Shown here: one piece after another, positions 31,557 through 62,475 of the stretch | How the letters are laid out: each line of letters begins with the position of its first letter | Position numbering within the stretch: position 1 is the stretch's first letter | Source: Elusimicrobiota bacterium | GTDB lineage: Bacteria; Elusimicrobiota; UBA8919 | Length of the DNA stretch: 62,475 nucleotides | Direction: 5' to 3' | NCBI GenBank assembly: GCA_040757695.1 | Contig: JBFLWK010000008.1 | Location: forward strand, 1-62,475 | Notes under the pieces: generated by a model | The model's database searches: none | What the model saw: only the letters and a program-made list of their open reading frames with translations | Told to the model about the DNA's origin: nothing | Translations under genes and position numbers: made by a program

Positions 31557-31631
31557 GGTGAGCGACGGGATTTGAACCCGCAACCTCATGGGCCACAGCC
31601 AAGCGCTCTAACCAGTTGAGCTACGCCCACC
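31557..31631 (-). tRNA. tRNA-His (GTG)
   Basis: Cloverleaf on the minus strand: acceptor GTGGGCG/CGCTCAC, D-arm GCTC/GAGC, anticodon loop CTGTGGC with anticodon GTG, and a T-arm GCGGG/CCCGT with TTCAAAT. The extra 5' G (31631) and discriminator C (31557) are the tRNA-His identity pair. CCA is not encoded. Confidence 0.93.
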
Positions 31632-31688
31632 ATTAACTACAATTAAAAATTGAAAATGCAAAATTAAAAATTTATTGTAGTTTTTATG

Positions 31689-31762
31689 CGTCCCTGGGGC
31701 GATTCGAACGCCCGACCCTCTGCTTAGAAGGCAGATGCTCTATCCTGCTGAGCTACAGGGAC
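31689..31762 (-). tRNA. tRNA-Arg (TCT)
   Basis: Acceptor GTCCCTG/CAGGGAC, anticodon stem TCTGC/GCAGA around CTTCTAA (anticodon TCT, reads AGA/AGG), and a T-arm with GTTCGAAT. CCA is not encoded. Confidence 0.94.
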
Positions 31763-31825
31763 ACTAACAAACAAAAGTAAAAAGTTAAAGGTAAAAAGTT
31801 AAAATTTTATTATATTATATTTATT

Positions 31826-31901
31826 ATCGGGGCGGTCGGATTTGAACCGACGACCTCTTGCTCCCAAAGCAAGCGCGCTAAACCGACTGCGCCACGCCCC
31901 G
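31826..31901 (-). tRNA. tRNA-Pro (TGG)
   Basis: Acceptor CGGGGCG/CGCCCCG, anticodon stem CTTGC/GCAAG around TTTGGGA (anticodon TGG), and a T-arm with GTTCAAAT. It is the last of the three-tRNA cluster; the stretches between hold only AT-rich spacer. Confidence 0.94.
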
Positions 31902-55336: not shown

Positions 55337-56908
55337 ATGTATATAAAATGCCCTTACTGCGGAACACAAAATGATATTCCAGATTTTAGCATCGGGCAAA
55401 AAGCCAGATGCAAAAAATGCGGCGCTAATTTTGAGACAACAACTGTTTTGCTATCCCAACAGCAAGCAATATCATCACAGCAAACAGACCAACAGAAAAC
55501 AGTTATCGCATCACTCAAACCGAGACACAATGTTCCCGGCTACCAAATAGTCGCAGAAATTGGACACGGTGGAATGGGATATATATATAAAGCAATTCAA
55601 ATCTCACTTAAAAGAACCGTAGCAATCAAAGTTTTACCAGAAGGACTTTCACAAGATGAAAATTTTTTGCAGCGATTTGACAAGGAAGCACTCATTCTAG
55701 CAGGACTTAAACATCCTAATATCACTGCTGTCTTTGATAAAGGCCATTTTGAGCATACCTACTACTTTATAATGGAGTTTGTTGAAGGATATGATTTACG
55801 AAAAGAATTAAATACCGGCAAATTACCATTACAGGAAATATTGAGAATCATTACCACTACCTGCAATGCGTTAGAATATGCCCATCAAAAAAATATCGTT
55901 CACAGAGACCTGAAACCGGAAAATATCTTGATTGACCTTGATAAAAATATAAAAATTGTTGATTTCGGATTGGCTGGACTTGTTGGTATCGCACCGCACT
56001 TAAATATCACCGGTGCCAATGTTGTGATGGGAACATATAACTATATGTCACCTGAACAACGTATATCCGCAAATGTTGACCATCGCTCAGATATCTATTC
56101 TTTAGGCGTGATTTTTTATGAGATGCTAACAGGACAGCTGCCCGTCGGTAAGTTTGCAATGCCGTCAGAAATAGTTCCGCAACTTGATAAGCGGTTTGAT
56201 AGAATTATTGAAAACATGCTGCAAACAGATATTAGATTGAGATACCAGAATATAAAAAATGTAATCACTGACCTTTCTGTAATTACCCAGAAACCTGAAC
56301 TCCAAAAAATAGTATTGAAAAAACCAAAAAATAAAATTTCTGTCAAACCGTTTGTAATTTCAATTACAATTCTAGTTTTAATCATTGCAGTTGGTTTTGG
56401 TATAAAAAAATTGAAAAAATCTGCTGATGACCTGCTGAACTATGCAACTCAACTTAACCAGCCGGAAGAAAAAATCAAACTGCTACAGAAACTGCGTGAA
56501 AAATTTCCTGCTGATAAATTGAACTGCGCCAAATCGCTTATCTACGAAGCCAATACATATGCTACACTTGGTAAAAATTCAGAAGCACTCTTAAAATATG
56601 AAGAAGTAATCACAAAATATCAGGAGTTTGACACGCAGACAGGATTTGCTCAAATAGGTGGTGCAACCGTATTACATAAAATGGGCGATGTTTCAAACGC
56701 ACTAACATTGTTAAAAAATTGTATAGAAACACACCCTAATAATTCTGAAATTCAGGCACTCGCATACCTTACAGTCGGCGATATCCAATTAGAAATCGGC
56801 GATACCGATAAAGCAATACTCGCATACCAGAAAGTTATTCGGAATTATCCATCTGAAACAAAATTAGTTTCACTCGCCAAAGAAAAAATTGAAAAAATAA
56901 AGAAGTAA
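55337..56908 (+). CDS. Ser/Thr protein kinase with zinc ribbon and TPR tail
   Basis: 523 residues. An N-terminal zinc ribbon (CPYCGTQND, CKKCGANFE) is followed by a kinase domain (about 67-325): GHGGMGYIY, catalytic Lys near 98 (VAIKVLPE), HRDLKPENIL, DFGLAG, and SPEQR. One TM helix (about 336-356) then leads to an extracytoplasmic part with TPR-like repeats. A PASTA domain is absent. It could supply phosphothreonine for the FHA histidine kinase at 25462, an inference only. Confidence 0.9.
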   Translation: MYIKCPYCGTQNDIPDFSIGQKARCKKCGANFETTTVLLSQQQAISSQQTDQQKTVIASLKPRHNVPGYQIVAEIGHGGMGYIYKAIQISLKRTVAIKVLPEGLSQDENFLQRFDKEALILAGLKHPNITAVFDKGHFEHTYYFIMEFVEGYDLRKELNTGKLPLQEILRIITTTCNALEYAHQKNIVHRDLKPENILIDLDKNIKIVDFGLAGLVGIAPHLNITGANVVMGTYNYMSPEQRISANVDHRSDIYSLGVIFYEMLTGQLPVGKFAMPSEIVPQLDKRFDRIIENMLQTDIRLRYQNIKNVITDLSVITQKPELQKIVLKKPKNKISVKPFVISITILVLIIAVGFGIKKLKKSADDLLNYATQLNQPEEKIKLLQKLREKFPADKLNCAKSLIYEANTYATLGKNSEALLKYEEVITKYQEFDTQTGFAQIGGATVLHKMGDVSNALTLLKNCIETHPNNSEIQALAYLTVGDIQLEIGDTDKAILAYQKVIRNYPSETKLVSLAKEKIEKIKK

Positions 56909-56925
56909 AAAAATACATACTTCAC

Positions 56926-56953
56926 TTGATTTATCCTGTTAAATAAGTATAAT
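56926..56953 (+). promoter_or_regulatory. Candidate promoter of the ECF sigma leader
   Basis: TTGATT (56926-56931) and TATAAT (56948-56953) are 16 bp apart. Transcription would start near 56961, giving a leader of about 306 nt before the sigma factor gene. Confidence 0.5.
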
Positions 56954-57050
56954 TTTAATCAGATAATGTTTTTTTAAGCTGGACTATTTTGATAACTTTT
57001 TTGTGAGGTGCGAATAGAGAAAAAAAATTAAATACATATAAATAGGTAGT

Positions 57051-57256
57051 AGAAGCAAACTTCGTAAGTTCCGATAACAGTCGGAGCAGAGCTTCTCTAA
57101 GTAATCAGAGGGCACATTTCAGTACGAAGGGATGCTGTTACTCGTCCGTTAGGATGGGGTGGCAGTCGTTCTGGGTTACTGAAATGGCTCAGAATGGATT
57201 GTTCACCCCTTTTGTTTTTGGGGCGAATTATCCAAACTTGGAGAATAATTTCCAAG
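57051..57256 (+). ncRNA. Structured RNA of unknown class upstream of ECF sigma factor
   Basis: The 358-bp gap before the sigma factor gene holds several helices in sequence. AGAAGC (57051-57056) and GCTTCT (57091-57096) close a junction with hairpins AACTT/AAGTT (about 57058-57070) and TCCGA/TCGGA (57070-57085). CATTTCAGTA (about 57115-57124) and TACTGAAATG (57177-57186) form a perfect 10-bp stem enclosing CTCGTCC/GGATGGG with a GTTA loop. A C4/G4 hairpin follows (about 57205-57223). Last, CTTGGA (57237-57242) pairs with TCCAAG (57251-57256), overlapping the ribosome-binding site AAGAGG (57254-57259). It could be a cis-acting leader or a separate RNA. I matched it to no known class. Confidence 0.5.
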
Positions 57257-57266
57257 AGGTCTTAAG

Positions 57267-57806
57267 ATGAAAGGTAGCCCTGAAAATATAGAAGAAATAA
57301 TCATTAAATATGAAAAGAAAATATATAACCTTTTTTATTCACTATCTAAGAATGTTGATGAAACAAAAGACCTGACACAAGAAACATTCATCAAAGCATA
57401 TAAGAAACTCAATACCTTTCGGAAAGAATCAAAGATATTCAGTTGGCTTTATCGTATCGCACTAAACTGCTGGAAAAATAAAGTCAGATATGACAAAAGG
57501 CACGGAAGAACACAGGAATTATCTTTAGAAACTTCTGCTGAAAACTGTAGCGAAACGATTACACAAAAACAAGATGACAAAACACTTACACCCGAGCAAA
57601 ACACTATACAAACTGATACCCAGAAATGGATAGAAAAAGAAATCCAGCAACTTCCTGATAAATATAAAATTGCACTCTCATTACATATAAAAAACTTGAG
57701 TTATGAAGAAATAGCAGAAATACTGAAATGCCGTATCGCTACTGCAAGAATACTCGTATCACGTGCGAAGAAGAAACTCAAAGAAAAAATATTACCGTAT
57801 TTATAA
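57267..57806 (+). CDS. ECF-type RNA polymerase sigma factor
   Basis: 179 residues. Region 2 contains DLTQETFIKAYKKLNTFR and SWLYRIALNCWKNKVR; region 4 contains LPDKYKIALSLHIKNLSYEEI and AEILKCRIATARILVSRAKKKL. It should direct transcription of an envelope regulon and be held by the anti-sigma factor encoded 50 bp downstream. Its ribosome-binding site is partly paired in the leader hairpin at 57237-57256. Confidence 0.93.
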   Translation: MKGSPENIEEIIIKYEKKIYNLFYSLSKNVDETKDLTQETFIKAYKKLNTFRKESKIFSWLYRIALNCWKNKVRYDKRHGRTQELSLETSAENCSETITQKQDDKTLTPEQNTIQTDTQKWIEKEIQQLPDKYKIALSLHIKNLSYEEIAEILKCRIATARILVSRAKKKLKEKILPYL

Positions 57807-57855: not shown

Positions 57856-58323
57856 ATGAACTATTGTAAGCACATCAAGGGATTATTTCAGGATTATTTG
57901 GCAGATAACCTGCTACATAAAACCAAGAATGAAGTAGAGGAACATTTAAGAAACTGTCAAAATTGCAAGAAAGAATTTACTGCAATAAAATTAGTGGAAG
58001 ATACAATAAAAGGTTTGCAGGTATCTGCCGATAAAAAAGTTCCTGCTGGTTTAAGAACACGGATATTGGCAAATATAAAAATACTTACCGAAAAACATAG
58101 ACCATTTTTCTATATCCCATCTTTTGTCCGTATTTTGTGTTTCTCTGCTGTTTTTGTTGTATTGGTTGTGTCAACAGTACATTTTTGTCCTCGGCGTACC
58201 ACTACAAAATGTACAGCAAATAACTTTATTGCACAAGCAATAGCCCAGGCAAGAGAAGATTATGAATCCGAATTTCTGGCTCAAAAGACAACCAGGGTTC
58301 TTGGTGAAGGAGGCCAGAGATGA
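57856..58323 (+). CDS. Zinc-finger anti-sigma factor
   Basis: 155 residues. The N-terminal zf-HC2 type domain has C-x-x-H (YCKHIKG) and EEHLRNCQNCKKEF (H-x3-C-x2-C). One TM segment (about 93-115) would place the C-terminus outside the cytoplasm. It fits the membrane-bound anti-sigma of the preceding ECF factor. The ATG at 57856 follows GGGGA. The end overlaps the next gene by 4 nt. Confidence 0.87.
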   Translation: MNYCKHIKGLFQDYLADNLLHKTKNEVEEHLRNCQNCKKEFTAIKLVEDTIKGLQVSADKKVPAGLRTRILANIKILTEKHRPFFYIPSFVRILCFSAVFVVLVVSTVHFCPRRTTTKCTANNFIAQAIAQAREDYESEFLAQKTTRVLGEGGQR

Positions 58324-59039
58324 AACCAATAAAAAAAACATTTAGATTTTTGGGCTGTAACTTATCTCTTATCTCTTTTCTCTTATCTCTGTCATTCTGC
58401 CAGGACATCGTTTTTGTTCAACCGAAATCTTTGAAAGTTACTTCATCCCCAGTAACAATAAAAGGTTCGGTTATGGATTTTGATACTACAGAAATTGATA
58501 TGGCGGTTGTCAACCTGATTGACCTATTAAAACAGGGGAAGAACACTCCCAAAAGTAAAAAAGAAAAGAGACCTTGGTGGGAAACACTGAAATATGAAAC
58601 TATTCCAGTAAGGAATGGTTTTTTCCAAAAAAGTATTGATATAAAAGAAGGGATAAACTCTGTAATCGCAAAACCTGCAAATGTTCAACCAACTTCCCAA
58701 AACACTGAAACAAAAGTTATAGTTTTAGACAAAGTATCAGCTAAACTGATATTAACTGACCCAGTAAGTGATAGAATACCATACTTGAAAAAGATTGCTG
58801 GTATTTGCAAAGTAAAACCGCGTCCAAAAAGTGTAAAAGTAACAATAGAAGCATTTGTATCAAAAGATATTGACGGTGAAAAAAAATATAAATTGGAAAA
58901 ATTGATGGAAGTTACAGTGCCAGTAAAAAGTAAAAAATTTTTTGTTCCTGTATCACTTACTGAAATGCTGACCGGTGAAGAAATCCTCATAATAACAATT
59001 TCTACGGATGACATAGAAATAACAAAAACATTATTCTAA
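58320..59039 (+). CDS. Secreted protein of unknown function in the sigma operon
   Basis: 239 residues. No family recognised. The signal peptide (GCNLSLISFLLSLSFCQ) is encoded by TTATCTC heptamers (58362-58389). The mature part is beta-rich, with KVTSSPVTIKGSVMDFDTTE resembling an Ig-like bacterial domain. It is co-transcribed with the sigma and anti-sigma genes, so it may be a sensor or target of that circuit. Confidence 0.65.
   Translation: MKPIKKTFRFLGCNLSLISFLLSLSFCQDIVFVQPKSLKVTSSPVTIKGSVMDFDTTEIDMAVVNLIDLLKQGKNTPKSKKEKRPWWETLKYETIPVRNGFFQKSIDIKEGINSVIAKPANVQPTSQNTETKVIVLDKVSAKLILTDPVSDRIPYLKKIAGICKVKPRPKSVKVTIEAFVSKDIDGEKKYKLEKLMEVTVPVKSKKFFVPVSLTEMLTGEEILIITISTDDIEITKTLF
58362..58389. 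repeat. TTATCTC tandem heptamer as signal peptide
   Basis: Four TTATCTC units (third one TTTTCTC) encode the hydrophobic core of the preceding secreted protein. Confidence 0.85.
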
Positions 59040-59104
59040 ACGGGGAGGTGGTGAAGAGATAATTTTAGAGGTTGGAAAAAAATTTTGTGAAAAAAGGAGG
59101 GTGT

Positions 59105-59752
59105 ATGAAGTATTATGGATTGCTGTTGGCAGTGTTTGCTGGAATGTTGGCGGGTTGTGCGACTACTCAAGAGGCAATAAAACCAGCGCCTTCTGTGGAT
59201 GAAAAAATGATATGGTCATCACATCCACAAAGACCTGGTTGGACTGTATCAGAGCCGGCAATGGAAGACGATAAATTGACATTTGTAGGTTTATCTGCGG
59301 AAAGAGTAGCCACAGAAAAAGATGCCAGAGATGAGGCACACAATAATGCAATCAACTATGTGGTTAAATATATCGGAACATTTGTAGACAGCAAAATAGA
59401 AAAAATTGCTACAACATATGGTTTGTCAGCAGATATAGTTAATCCTACAGAAGCCAAGCGTAGTAGGTCAGAACAATTATCCACTGCATTAACGACTCGG
59501 GTGAAGTCGGCGGAATGGTATCTAGAAAAATATCGGAATAAAATGGAAGAAGTTTATTACAAAGCATTTGTAAAGGCATCCGTTCCGAAAACCGCAATAG
59601 ATGAAGCGTATAAGGACATAATGGATAGCAACATTGACGATATGAAAAAGAAACGCGATGCTGCCAGCGACGAAAAAGCAAAATCACAATTTCAGAATGC
59701 TATGAACGCATTTGAAGATGCCAAAAACAAAGGCTTTACATTAGAAAAATAA
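59105..59752 (+). CDS. LPP20-like lipoprotein
   Basis: 215 residues with a standard signal and lipobox (AVFAGMLAGCATT). The mature part has WSSHPQRPGWTVSEP, TFVGLSAERVATEKDARDEA, and a helical C-terminus. The FVGLS-type segment followed by EAxxxA helices resembles the LPP20/LPP-like group of unknown function. It has a clear paralogue downstream. The start at 59105 follows AAAGGAGGG. Confidence 0.75.
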   Translation: MKYYGLLLAVFAGMLAGCATTQEAIKPAPSVDEKMIWSSHPQRPGWTVSEPAMEDDKLTFVGLSAERVATEKDARDEAHNNAINYVVKYIGTFVDSKIEKIATTYGLSADIVNPTEAKRSRSEQLSTALTTRVKSAEWYLEKYRNKMEEVYYKAFVKASVPKTAIDEAYKDIMDSNIDDMKKKRDAASDEKAKSQFQNAMNAFEDAKNKGFTLEK

Positions 59753-59780
59753 AGAACAAATGCTAAATAGGGAATAGCCA

Positions 59781-61064
59781 ATGCGACTATCCCCTAAAAT
59801 CTATTTTATGAATTTTGAAATATTGATATTGATATTTTTATTTTGTATTTGTTCTTGTGCTACAAAAAGAGATATAAAAATTGGTGAGGAAGGATTTCAA
59901 GAGAGGGGCAAAGTTAAAAATGAAAGAGTAATATGGAGTTCACACAATAAGAGACCTGAATGGACAATAAAAGAACCATATGAAAAAAATACAGATTTGT
60001 TATTTGTTGGAATATCAAATAAATTTGCAACAGAAAAAGAAGCACGGGATGATGCACAAAATACAGCTATAAAAACAGTTGTGAAATATATTGGCGTTGA
60101 TGTAAAGAATCAGTTTCAACAAATACGGACATCATATGGATTGAGTTCTGATATAGTAGACCCAACAATAGCCACAAGAGAAATAGAACAGCAGTTGTCA
60201 CAAGCAGTTGCTAGAAAAGTGAAAGCAGTAGAATGGTATATAGAAAAAATAAAGGTTGAATATGAAAAACAGGATAAACAATATTATTCGGTATTTTTAC
60301 TTGCTAAAATTCCCAAAAATGAGATAGATGACGCAATTAAAAAACAAATTGAAGAACAAAAAGAAAAACATGCCAAAATAAAGGAAGTAAAGAATTTAGT
60401 TAATAATGCACAAAACTTGATTATTGATGCCAAGCAAGTAATACAAACAAAACCAGGAAAAGCAAGAAATATCTTTAACGAAGCAATAAAAATTTTAGAA
60501 CAGGTAAAAATACAAATATCTGAGTTTCCAGAAGCACAGGATTTATTAAAACAAATTGCATCTTGTGTTCTAGAAGCCAAAGCAAATATTAATAAGGCAG
60601 AAAAAATATTGGAGACTAAAATAATTGTGTGTATGAAGACAAATGATTTAGCATTATTAAAATATATAAAAATGATTGAAACAGAAATATCTAATACCCT
60701 CAATCAATCAATGAGTAAAAAAGATATAGTATTATCTTCAACAATAGAAGAAAATGAAAAAAACATTGACTTTAAAGAAATAGCAGGCACATTAATTTCT
60801 GGAGATTTTTCTTGTGAATATATGGACGATAAAGTGTTAATCCCTGGCGGAAGTGAAGTGGCAGGTATGCCTTGTTCTAAAGCGGAAATGAGTATACAAA
60901 TTATAGATGTAATAAACAACAAAACAATTTCAGATTTTAATGTATCGGGAAAAGGATTTGGCAGAACAAAAGAAGAATCACAATTGAAAGCATTAAAAGA
61001 AGTAGCAATCAATGCCACAAAAAATATTTCAACGAAAATTATAGAAGATAATTTAAAAAAATAA
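59781..61064 (+). CDS. Large LPP20-like paralogue with added domain
   Basis: 427 residues (or 418 from the ATG at 59808). Lipobox-like FCICSCATK. Residues about 50-190 are homologous to the preceding lipoprotein (WSSHNKRPEWTIKEP, ATEKEARDDAQNTA, TSYGLSSDIVDPT). The remainder adds a long helical region and a C-terminal domain (GTLISGDFSCEYMDDKVLI). The pair suggests a tandem duplication followed by growth of one copy. Confidence 0.75.
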   Translation: MRLSPKIYFMNFEILILIFLFCICSCATKRDIKIGEEGFQERGKVKNERVIWSSHNKRPEWTIKEPYEKNTDLLFVGISNKFATEKEARDDAQNTAIKTVVKYIGVDVKNQFQQIRTSYGLSSDIVDPTIATREIEQQLSQAVARKVKAVEWYIEKIKVEYEKQDKQYYSVFLLAKIPKNEIDDAIKKQIEEQKEKHAKIKEVKNLVNNAQNLIIDAKQVIQTKPGKARNIFNEAIKILEQVKIQISEFPEAQDLLKQIASCVLEAKANINKAEKILETKIIVCMKTNDLALLKYIKMIETEISNTLNQSMSKKDIVLSSTIEENEKNIDFKEIAGTLISGDFSCEYMDDKVLIPGGSEVAGMPCSKAEMSIQIIDVINNKTISDFNVSGKGFGRTKEESQLKALKEVAINATKNISTKIIEDNLKK

Positions 61065-61086
61065 AAAGAAGAATCAAAAAATTAGA

Positions 61087-62475
61087 ATGAAAAAACTACG
61101 GATTATTGTTTTTTATGTATTTTTAGGAATAATCACTCCCCTTCCCATTTTTGCAAGTTTAGGAGATGCTGTAGATAATACATCATTAAGCTGGACAACA
61201 GGAGGGAATGCAAACTGGTTCGGGCAGAGTTCAGAATACTACTATGGTGGAGATGCATCAGAAAGTGGTGATATTTCTGATAGTCAAAGTTCATATATTC
61301 AAACAGCAGTTGTGGGACCGGGAACACTTAAATTTTATTGGAAAGTGTCATCTGAGAGTGGTTGGGACCATCTCAGGTTTTATATAGATACAACAAAGCA
61401 AGATGAAATTAGTGGGACAGTAAATTGGGGACAAAAAACATATACAATTTATTCTGGTAATCATACACTCAAATGGAGTTATGAAAAAGATACCATCTAT
61501 AGTAATGGCTCTGATTGTGGCTGGTTAGATAAGGTTGAATGGACAGGAACAGCCGGAAGTCAACAGAACGATGCAGACAGCGGTGGAGATGCTGGAAATA
61601 CTTTGGATTCTGCTACGGCAATTACTCCAGAAATAACTTACACCGCATATCTAGATTCAAATGATAGTGCCGATTATTACAAATTCTATGTTACTTCTGG
61701 TCAGACTATTTCCATAAGTGCTACTTTCCCATCAGGAACAGATTTTTGGGGTGAAGTATATGACCCTAATGGCAGTCAAAAATCTTCAACGACCGGATAC
61801 AGTATTGTTGCTGATTCAACTGGATATTGGAGATGGGCTGCGAAACGAACTTATGGAGAGGGGCAGTATTCATTTAAGATTTCTGTCTACTCACAAAACG
61901 ATGCAAACAGCGGAGGAGATGCAGGTAACAGTGTCAGTTCTGCTACAACTCTTGGTTATTGGGGATATTTTGGGGGTTGTAGTGACGAAGAAGGATACAT
62001 AGATTCTGATGATACAGAAGATTATTATAAATTTCCTGCACCAGCGGATAATGAAATAAAAGCGACAATATCTTCCTCGTCAACATTAACAGCGAATGTA
62101 TATTTACTGGACTCTTACGGGAATATACTTATTTCTGGCCAACTTGCATCAACAATAACTCTTTCATATTTTACATATAAAAGTGATGACTATTATCTTG
62201 AAGTAGAACAGAATTATGGTTCCGGGATATATACATTCTCTATAGATTTCACTCCTGACCAATACTGTGTAATTCCCTACCCAAATCCATTTAATATATC
62301 CAAAGGACATACGAAAATAACATTTGCAGGGTCAGGAGTTCCATATGGAAAAATTAGAATATACACAATTGACGGAAAACATATAAAAACCTTAGAAGAA
62401 ACAAACGGAAATAAGAGCATAGAATTATACCCAATACAAGAAAATATCCCGAGTGGAATATATTTGTATGGTACA
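61087..62475 (+). CDS. Secreted multi-domain surface protein, cut by window end
   Basis: The frame runs 463 codons from the ATG to the last base with no stop. Signal peptide (IIVFYVFLGIITPLPIFA), then a beta-sandwich domain (about 25-155, with FYWKVSSESGWDHLRFYID and CGWLDKVEW), two PPC-like domains opening with the repeated QNDADSGGDAGN and QNDANSGGDAGN, and a C-terminal sorting-type domain beginning IPYPNPFNISKGHTKITF. That last element is the FlgD-like/type-9 sorting domain, which marks proteins for the cell surface. Confidence 0.85.
   Translation, partial: MKKLRIIVFYVFLGIITPLPIFASLGDAVDNTSLSWTTGGNANWFGQSSEYYYGGDASESGDISDSQSSYIQTAVVGPGTLKFYWKVSSESGWDHLRFYIDTTKQDEISGTVNWGQKTYTIYSGNHTLKWSYEKDTIYSNGSDCGWLDKVEWTGTAGSQQNDADSGGDAGNTLDSATAITPEITYTAYLDSNDSADYYKFYVTSGQTISISATFPSGTDFWGEVYDPNGSQKSSTTGYSIVADSTGYWRWAAKRTYGEGQYSFKISVYSQNDANSGGDAGNSVSSATTLGYWGYFGGCSDEEGYIDSDDTEDYYKFPAPADNEIKATISSSSTLTANVYLLDSYGNILISGQLASTITLSYFTYKSDDYYLEVEQNYGSGIYTFSIDFTPDQYCVIPYPNPFNISKGHTKITFAGSGVPYGKIRIYTIDGKHIKTLEETNGNKSIELYPIQENIPSGIYLYGT

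Follow-up and report, generated by a model that had tools for sequence, protein, structure and literature searches.

A putative orphan riboswitch family of Elusimicrobiota represented in the leader of a sigma factor operon

The leader of an extracytoplasmic function (ECF) sigma factor gene in an Elusimicrobiota bacterium (assembly GCA_040757695.1, contig JBFLWK010000008.1; the entire analysed stretch of 62,475 nt is called the window below) contains one copy of an RNA family that is real, strongly supported by covariation, and apparently new. Members of this Elusimicrobiota family are probably cis-acting transcription attenuators, and most likely orphan riboswitches, to judge from aligned sequences and modelled folds. 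Comparison and computation are the basis for the family itself, for its pairings P1, P2, P3, and PA, for the terminator with its U-tract, for the mutual exclusion of two folds, and for the linkage to genes on the same strand.

Conserved pairings and their covariation

The leader fills the interval between a tetratricopeptide repeat kinase gene, which ends at 56908, and the sigma factor gene (57267-57806). The initial annotation had proposed a structured RNA at this site, and the folding energy bears it out: segment 57040-57275 folds with -87.7 kcal/mol vs a mean of -58.9 kcal/mol for dinucleotide shuffles (z -7.16), and none of 200 shuffles equalled it. The conserved element consists of the following parts.

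57048-57066, + strand: 5' strand of PA, the helix closing a three-way junction; its partner in the terminator state is 57123-57142, and its core covaries
57068-57087, + strand: hairpin P1 (57068-57075/57080-57087); all six counted pairs show compensatory changes, and 98.9% of cells are paired (96 copies)
57091-57113, + strand: hairpin P2 (57091-57098/57107-57113) with a conserved GC...GGCA base; 97.2% of cells paired at the three basal pairs in 96 copies
57115-57124, + strand: hypervariable 5' strand of P3; all eight counted pairs show compensatory changes, and 99.0% of cells are paired (96 copies)
57123-57142, + strand: 3' strand of PA, overlapping the 5' strand of P4; PA and P4 both use this middle strand in all 94 copies
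57135-57165, + strand: predicted antiterminator P4 (57135-57143/57157-57165) with a cap (57144-57147/57152-57155), from the fold; mean duplex energy -20.1 kcal/mol in 94 copies
57156-57209, + strand: intrinsic terminator hairpin of 23 bp with a 6-nt loop; -30.9 kcal/mol for 57153-57219, stems covarying in 20 homologues
57177-57186, + strand: 3' strand of P3, within the apical part of the terminator hairpin, from fold and covariation
57210-57219, + strand: U-tract UUUUGUUUUU, read from the sequence

The three-way junction is made up of PA as the closing helix and the hairpins P1 and P2, and all three are conserved pairings. The perfect 10-bp stem that had been described is present and corresponds to P3 (57115-57124/57177-57186). 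Compensatory changes, which had been suggested as a check of the stem spanning 57115-57186, occur in the homologues at every one of its eight counted pairs; between the window and a single homologue (in genome G040) four of them are already visible (CAUUUCAGUA/UACUGAAAUG vs CAUACGAAUA/UAUUCGUAUG).

Covariation was tested for two alternative states in 20 copies, using a free MAFFT alignment (A5). State A (PA core, P1, P2, and P3; 22 pairs) had 95.4% of its cells paired and 120 cells changed on both sides, compared with 38 in shuffles (0 of 500 shuffles reaching the observed value), and the signal was abolished by sliding the partner strands. All 20 sequences are paired at all eight P3 positions, with a compensatory change at each. 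State B (terminator stem and inner hairpin, its 3' half in common with state A) had 92.9% of cells paired and 75 double changes, compared with 24.5 in shuffles (0 of 500). In 96 distinct copies, 551 cells were changed on both sides vs 153 in shuffles, these pair counts being taken from an alignment (A7) that was fitted to the model and is hence biased toward it. The PA duplex has a mean energy of -13.6 kcal/mol, compared with -7.1 kcal/mol when its 5' strand is shuffled (94 copies).

Several core nucleotides are highly conserved in the 96 copies, including G6 (97%), A9 (91%), G24 in the P1 loop (99%), and the GC (99 and 95%) and GGCA (81-97%) at the base of P2. P3 is formed almost purely by Watson-Crick pairs, with G-U in 1 of 757 paired cells vs 40 of 562 in P1, and 63 distinct 8-mers were counted among the 96 copies. 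No 8-mer was common to copies within any of the 19 multi-copy genomes compared, which may be due to chance, since the diversity of 8-mers is high. The possibility that P3 is an invertible DNA segment was rejected, the orientation of its interior being constant in the compared copies.

Terminator and antiterminator folds

The conserved 3' part of the element is a terminator/antiterminator pair. In 92 of the 93 copies with a complete core, the region of the P4 3' strand forms a stem of 6 bp or more with a downstream arm, and in 87 of 93 the 9 nt after this stem include four or more U. Every one of 94 copies has a single middle strand for which the 5' strand of PA and the 3' strand of P4 are competitors. 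Because the P3 3' strand lies in the terminator apex, and the P4 3' strand is the terminator 5' arm, states A and B are mutually exclusive. This competition of a terminator with the long stem was absent from the initial annotation, as was the occurrence of the family away from sigma genes.

When the window RNA was extended stepwise in silico, P3/P4 was the best fold with the 3' end at 57186-57202, and PA together with the terminator was best with the 3' end at 57210-57226 (-67.5 vs -63.9 kcal/mol). Addition of sequence past the U-tract restored P3/P4 as the best fold.

Two competing folds are proposed for the leader. In the first, PA would close the three-way junction with P1 and P2 and occupy the P4 5' strand, by which GGGGUGGCAGUC (57156-57167) would be left free to form the terminator, followed by UUUUGUUUUU. 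In the second, the long-range P3 and the antiterminator P4 would form, the terminator 5' arm would be buried, and RNA polymerase would continue into the gene. A small molecule, the likely type of ligand, may bind at the conserved junction and select the first fold, making the RNA an OFF switch; this direction is suggested by analogy with other riboswitches. The sigma/anti-sigma operon of the window would be controlled by such a switch.

Purine riboswitches (RF00167) of the OFF type have a three-way junction, the 3' strand of its closing helix doubles as part of an antiterminator, and an intrinsic terminator follows. The Elusimicrobiota RNA has the same overall plan, but it differs in having no Rfam match, other conserved nucleotides, unrelated genes, and the hypervariable long-range P3 as an extra. 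The ANTAR-protein leader has two hexaloop hairpins, the second of which overlaps a terminator; in the present family both P1 and P2 have loops of variable length and sequence (no search aimed at ANTAR proteins was made). Orphan riboswitch candidates of the Breaker/Weinberg type (PMC6429828, PMC8632094, PMC11109978) are alike in being multi-copy leader RNAs supported by covariation. A search of these 2019, 2021, and 2024 reports gave no occurrence of the word stem "Elusimicrob"; no motif-by-motif comparison with their lists was made. Of the general characteristics of riboswitches, the family has a structured leader co-oriented with its gene, conserved core nucleotides, and mutually exclusive folds, and it would be expected to bind a ligand.

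Distribution of the family and its downstream genes

The RNA had been described as matching none of the riboswitch motifs or the 6S, SRP, RNase P, and tmRNA features inspected by eye, and no family of Rfam 15 was matched. The window gave only tRNAs and chance matches, both at gathering thresholds and in a permissive scan, and 16 homologue loci searched at E<=2 gave no RNA-family match at the site. No such RNA was found reported in the Elusimicrobia/Endomicrobia literature, most subscription papers being outside the search and a prior description hence being possible.

No second copy is present in the window genome. When 150 related genomes were searched at the DNA level, the only convincing match was in G040 (contig 7; 71% identity over 158 nt, E 2e-10); it precedes a nuclease-like gene and not a sigma gene. 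A first covariance model, built from the window and the G040 copy, found more copies within the phylum. A second, built from 20 sequences, was run on 341 Elusimicrobiota genomes and matched 92 of them at E<=0.1; since the E-values are per genome, the stricter count at E<=1e-5, made by hand, was adopted, i.e., about 139 copies in 86 genomes. L080 was discarded as a false match, as were the weakest of the R1 matches.

Outside the phylum, no credible copy was found with the covariance model in 465 genomes, namely 19 mixed genomes (none above chance, best E 0.096), 149 Planctomycetota genomes (none above chance, best E 0.058), and 297 genomes of the group of one deltaproteobacterial record (none above chance, best E 0.0057). 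Scans of virus contigs with DNA patterns gave no confirmed copy; one pattern gave five viral stretches, all unconfirmed by the model. The same pattern gave 23 stretches on GTDB contigs, only four of which were confirmed by the model, all of them from Elusimicrobiota.

Some copies have unusual forms. Genome G251 has a tandem pair on the - strand of locus L081 (1499-1617 and 1782-1932), the downstream copy having a shortened P1/P2 region and preceding a response regulator gene. In L067 (1501-1628) and L070 (1503-1642), the 3' half stops after the P3 start or in mid-core, and these are either degenerate copies or assembly joins.

The longest downstream open frame lies on the strand of the RNA in 81 copies and on the opposite strand in 7 (88 decidable copies), and the longest upstream frame lies on the same strand in 31 and on the opposite strand in 40. 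The median distance from the model end to the start codon is 71 nt, and it is at most 130 nt in 73 of 93 copies. The downstream bias and the short distance, together with the unbiased upstream side, form the pattern of a leader and disfavour a free-standing RNA.

Type IV prepilin motifs were found in 24 of 93 downstream genes, and two more loci (L185, L193) have possible partial pilins, giving about 26 in total. Enrichment in pilins is an impression from these counts, though a strong one. Other downstream genes encode restriction subunits or DNA methylases (L130, L150, L156, L182, L198), the surface enzymes LicD (L072), GT8 (L169), and UbiA (L126), CsgG-like and other lipoproteins, response regulators (L081, L194), GTPases (L143, L175), and ankyrin repeats (L065). 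The ECF sigma factor of the window is one of several regulatory genes behind the RNA, and no ECF sigma gene was seen behind any other copy examined. The RNA had been described as belonging to an ECF sigma leader, which is correct for its location in the window and does not hold for the family, a multi-copy one that precedes many unrelated genes.

Additional hairpins accompany some copies. In one subgroup (L073, L133, L139, L143, L149, L152, L155, L175, L179), the terminator is soon followed by another conserved hairpin, CGACA...UGUCG, and several of these hairpins precede a small protein (about 80 residues; e.g., MSQMIxxGKE...). A conserved GUUGGC...GCCAAC hairpin upstream of the RNA is common to four dispersed copies (L075, L076, L077, L084), three of which also carry, downstream of the RNA, a second hairpin that resembles a terminator (CCCCCUACGGUGAAG...GGGGG or similar).

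Alternative explanations and biological meaning

A number of points weigh against the interpretation as a riboswitch-type attenuator. Downstream genes were called by a simple rule of open reading frame plus ribosome-binding site, and they point to no single pathway, so that any ligand is a guess. Fold energies ignore pseudoknots and kinetics, and PA and P3 could partially coexist as a pseudoknot, which would alter the account of the switching direction. The bias of the 96-copy alignment belongs here as well. Within the window's own family the RNA occurs in one of eight genomes, that of the window, and is thus patchy in presence; no sigma orthologue carrying the RNA was found among these eight genomes. 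The search for sigma orthologues gave no match above 39% identity, so the leaders of orthologous sigma genes were not comparable.

A new riboswitch class for a cyclic dinucleotide, either cyclic di-GMP (c-di-GMP) or cGAMP made by GGDEF enzymes, is unlikely, although the gene classes speak for it. Downstream of the RNA, genes for type IV pilins and for surface and secreted proteins predominate, as in the known c-di-GMP-I/II and cGAMP regulons of the GEMM RNAs, with which transcription control is also a common feature. GGDEF proteins occur in 67 of 70 genomes, a near-universal presence that does not discriminate. The genus g43, however, has no GGDEF match and has kept the RNA (one copy in G093, 90% complete; five in G335, 63% complete), which speaks against c-di-GMP, or cGAMP of GGDEF origin, as the sole ligand, and the family has no resemblance to the Rfam GEMM models in sequence or by model match.

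The remaining alternatives involve features around the element in the window.

56926-56953, + strand: promoter-like site TTGATT-16-TATAAT, predicted by a consensus scan only, about 310 nt 5' of the ATG
57005-57031, + strand: Shine-Dalgarno (SD)-like GAGGT with a very short reading frame, the stretch being GAGGUGCGA-AUA-GAG-AAA-AAA-AAU-UAA; a possible 5' motif of the family, from enrichment over shuffles
57237-57256, + strand: hairpin touching the ribosome-binding site of the sigma gene (57237-57244/57249-57256), seen in the window fold only
57267-57806, + strand: ECF sigma factor gene (Sigma70_r2 and Sigma70_r4_2; NCBIfam sigma70-ECF)
57856-58323, + strand: anti-sigma factor gene, by a zf-HC2 domain match

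Downstream of the sigma/anti-sigma pair, region 58320-62475 has genes for secreted or lipoprotein-like proteins, two of which (59105-59752 and 59781-61064) are similar to each other and could not be assigned convincingly to a family of Pfam or NCBIfam; the same region has a gene that weakly matches the Por secretion tail. Three clustered tRNA genes are found at 31557-31901 on the - strand.

Ribosome-coupled attenuation, in which a short upstream frame on the SD-like motif would set the fold, is improbable. SD-like runs of at least 5 nt at -100 to -30 are found in 48 of 95 copies, compared with a mean of 17.5 and a maximum of 26 in shuffled sequences, and in many copies the motif is followed by AUN and a very short frame, sometimes a start-stop AUG-UAA. 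Against this, the motif is absent in many copies, including pilin leaders with a promoter-like TATAAT directly upstream, no conserved peptide is seen, and the codon after the motif is mostly non-AUG and often too near.

An independent small RNA that ends at an intrinsic terminator of its own and has the downstream gene as a mere neighbour is about equally improbable. A promoter-like sequence about 300 nt upstream had been noted, and a site does lie at 56926-56953, as a consensus match; with the strong terminator it would delimit a discrete unit. The gene orientation (81:7 downstream vs 31:40 upstream) and the median of 71 nt to the start codon argue against such an RNA, as does the covariation of P3/P4, for which a fold incompatible with the terminator is needed.

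Control of sigma translation through the hairpin at the ribosome-binding site, also proposed initially, is very doubtful. The hairpin does touch this site in the window fold, but it is not part of the conserved element, and a terminator with U-tract is present in most copies; with a terminator/antiterminator pair as the conserved 3' part, regulation of transcription has the better support. Antitermination by a dedicated NusG paralogue of the LoaP or RfaH type acting at this RNA, which one leader before diverse long-operon and surface genes would resemble, is highly implausible and largely refuted, as a NusG domain is found exactly once in 61 of the 64 genomes examined, whether or not they carry the RNA, and not at all in three, leaving no second NusG-family protein, and the Elusimicrobiota RNA itself encodes terminator and antiterminator.

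The covariation record of this presumed attenuator family equals that of many accepted riboswitch classes, and the family has apparently gone unrecorded across a whole phylum. Its gene set (pilins, lipopolysaccharide and LicD-type enzymes, DNA methylases, and restriction subunits) is of the kind that is phase-varied elsewhere, and the signal could therefore govern exposure to hosts, surfaces, or phages. Two extensions, taken jointly, are tentative at best. One is a phylum-wide regulon, in which a single riboswitch class with a ligand unlike those of known classes would jointly set pili, surface chemistry, restriction/methylation, and regulators; in the bolder one, the hypervariable P3 strands would be private address codes by which a terminated leader acts in trans on its own gene. 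The family provides a handle on gene regulation in mostly uncultured bacteria, with about 139 leaders and their linked genes for a ligand search.
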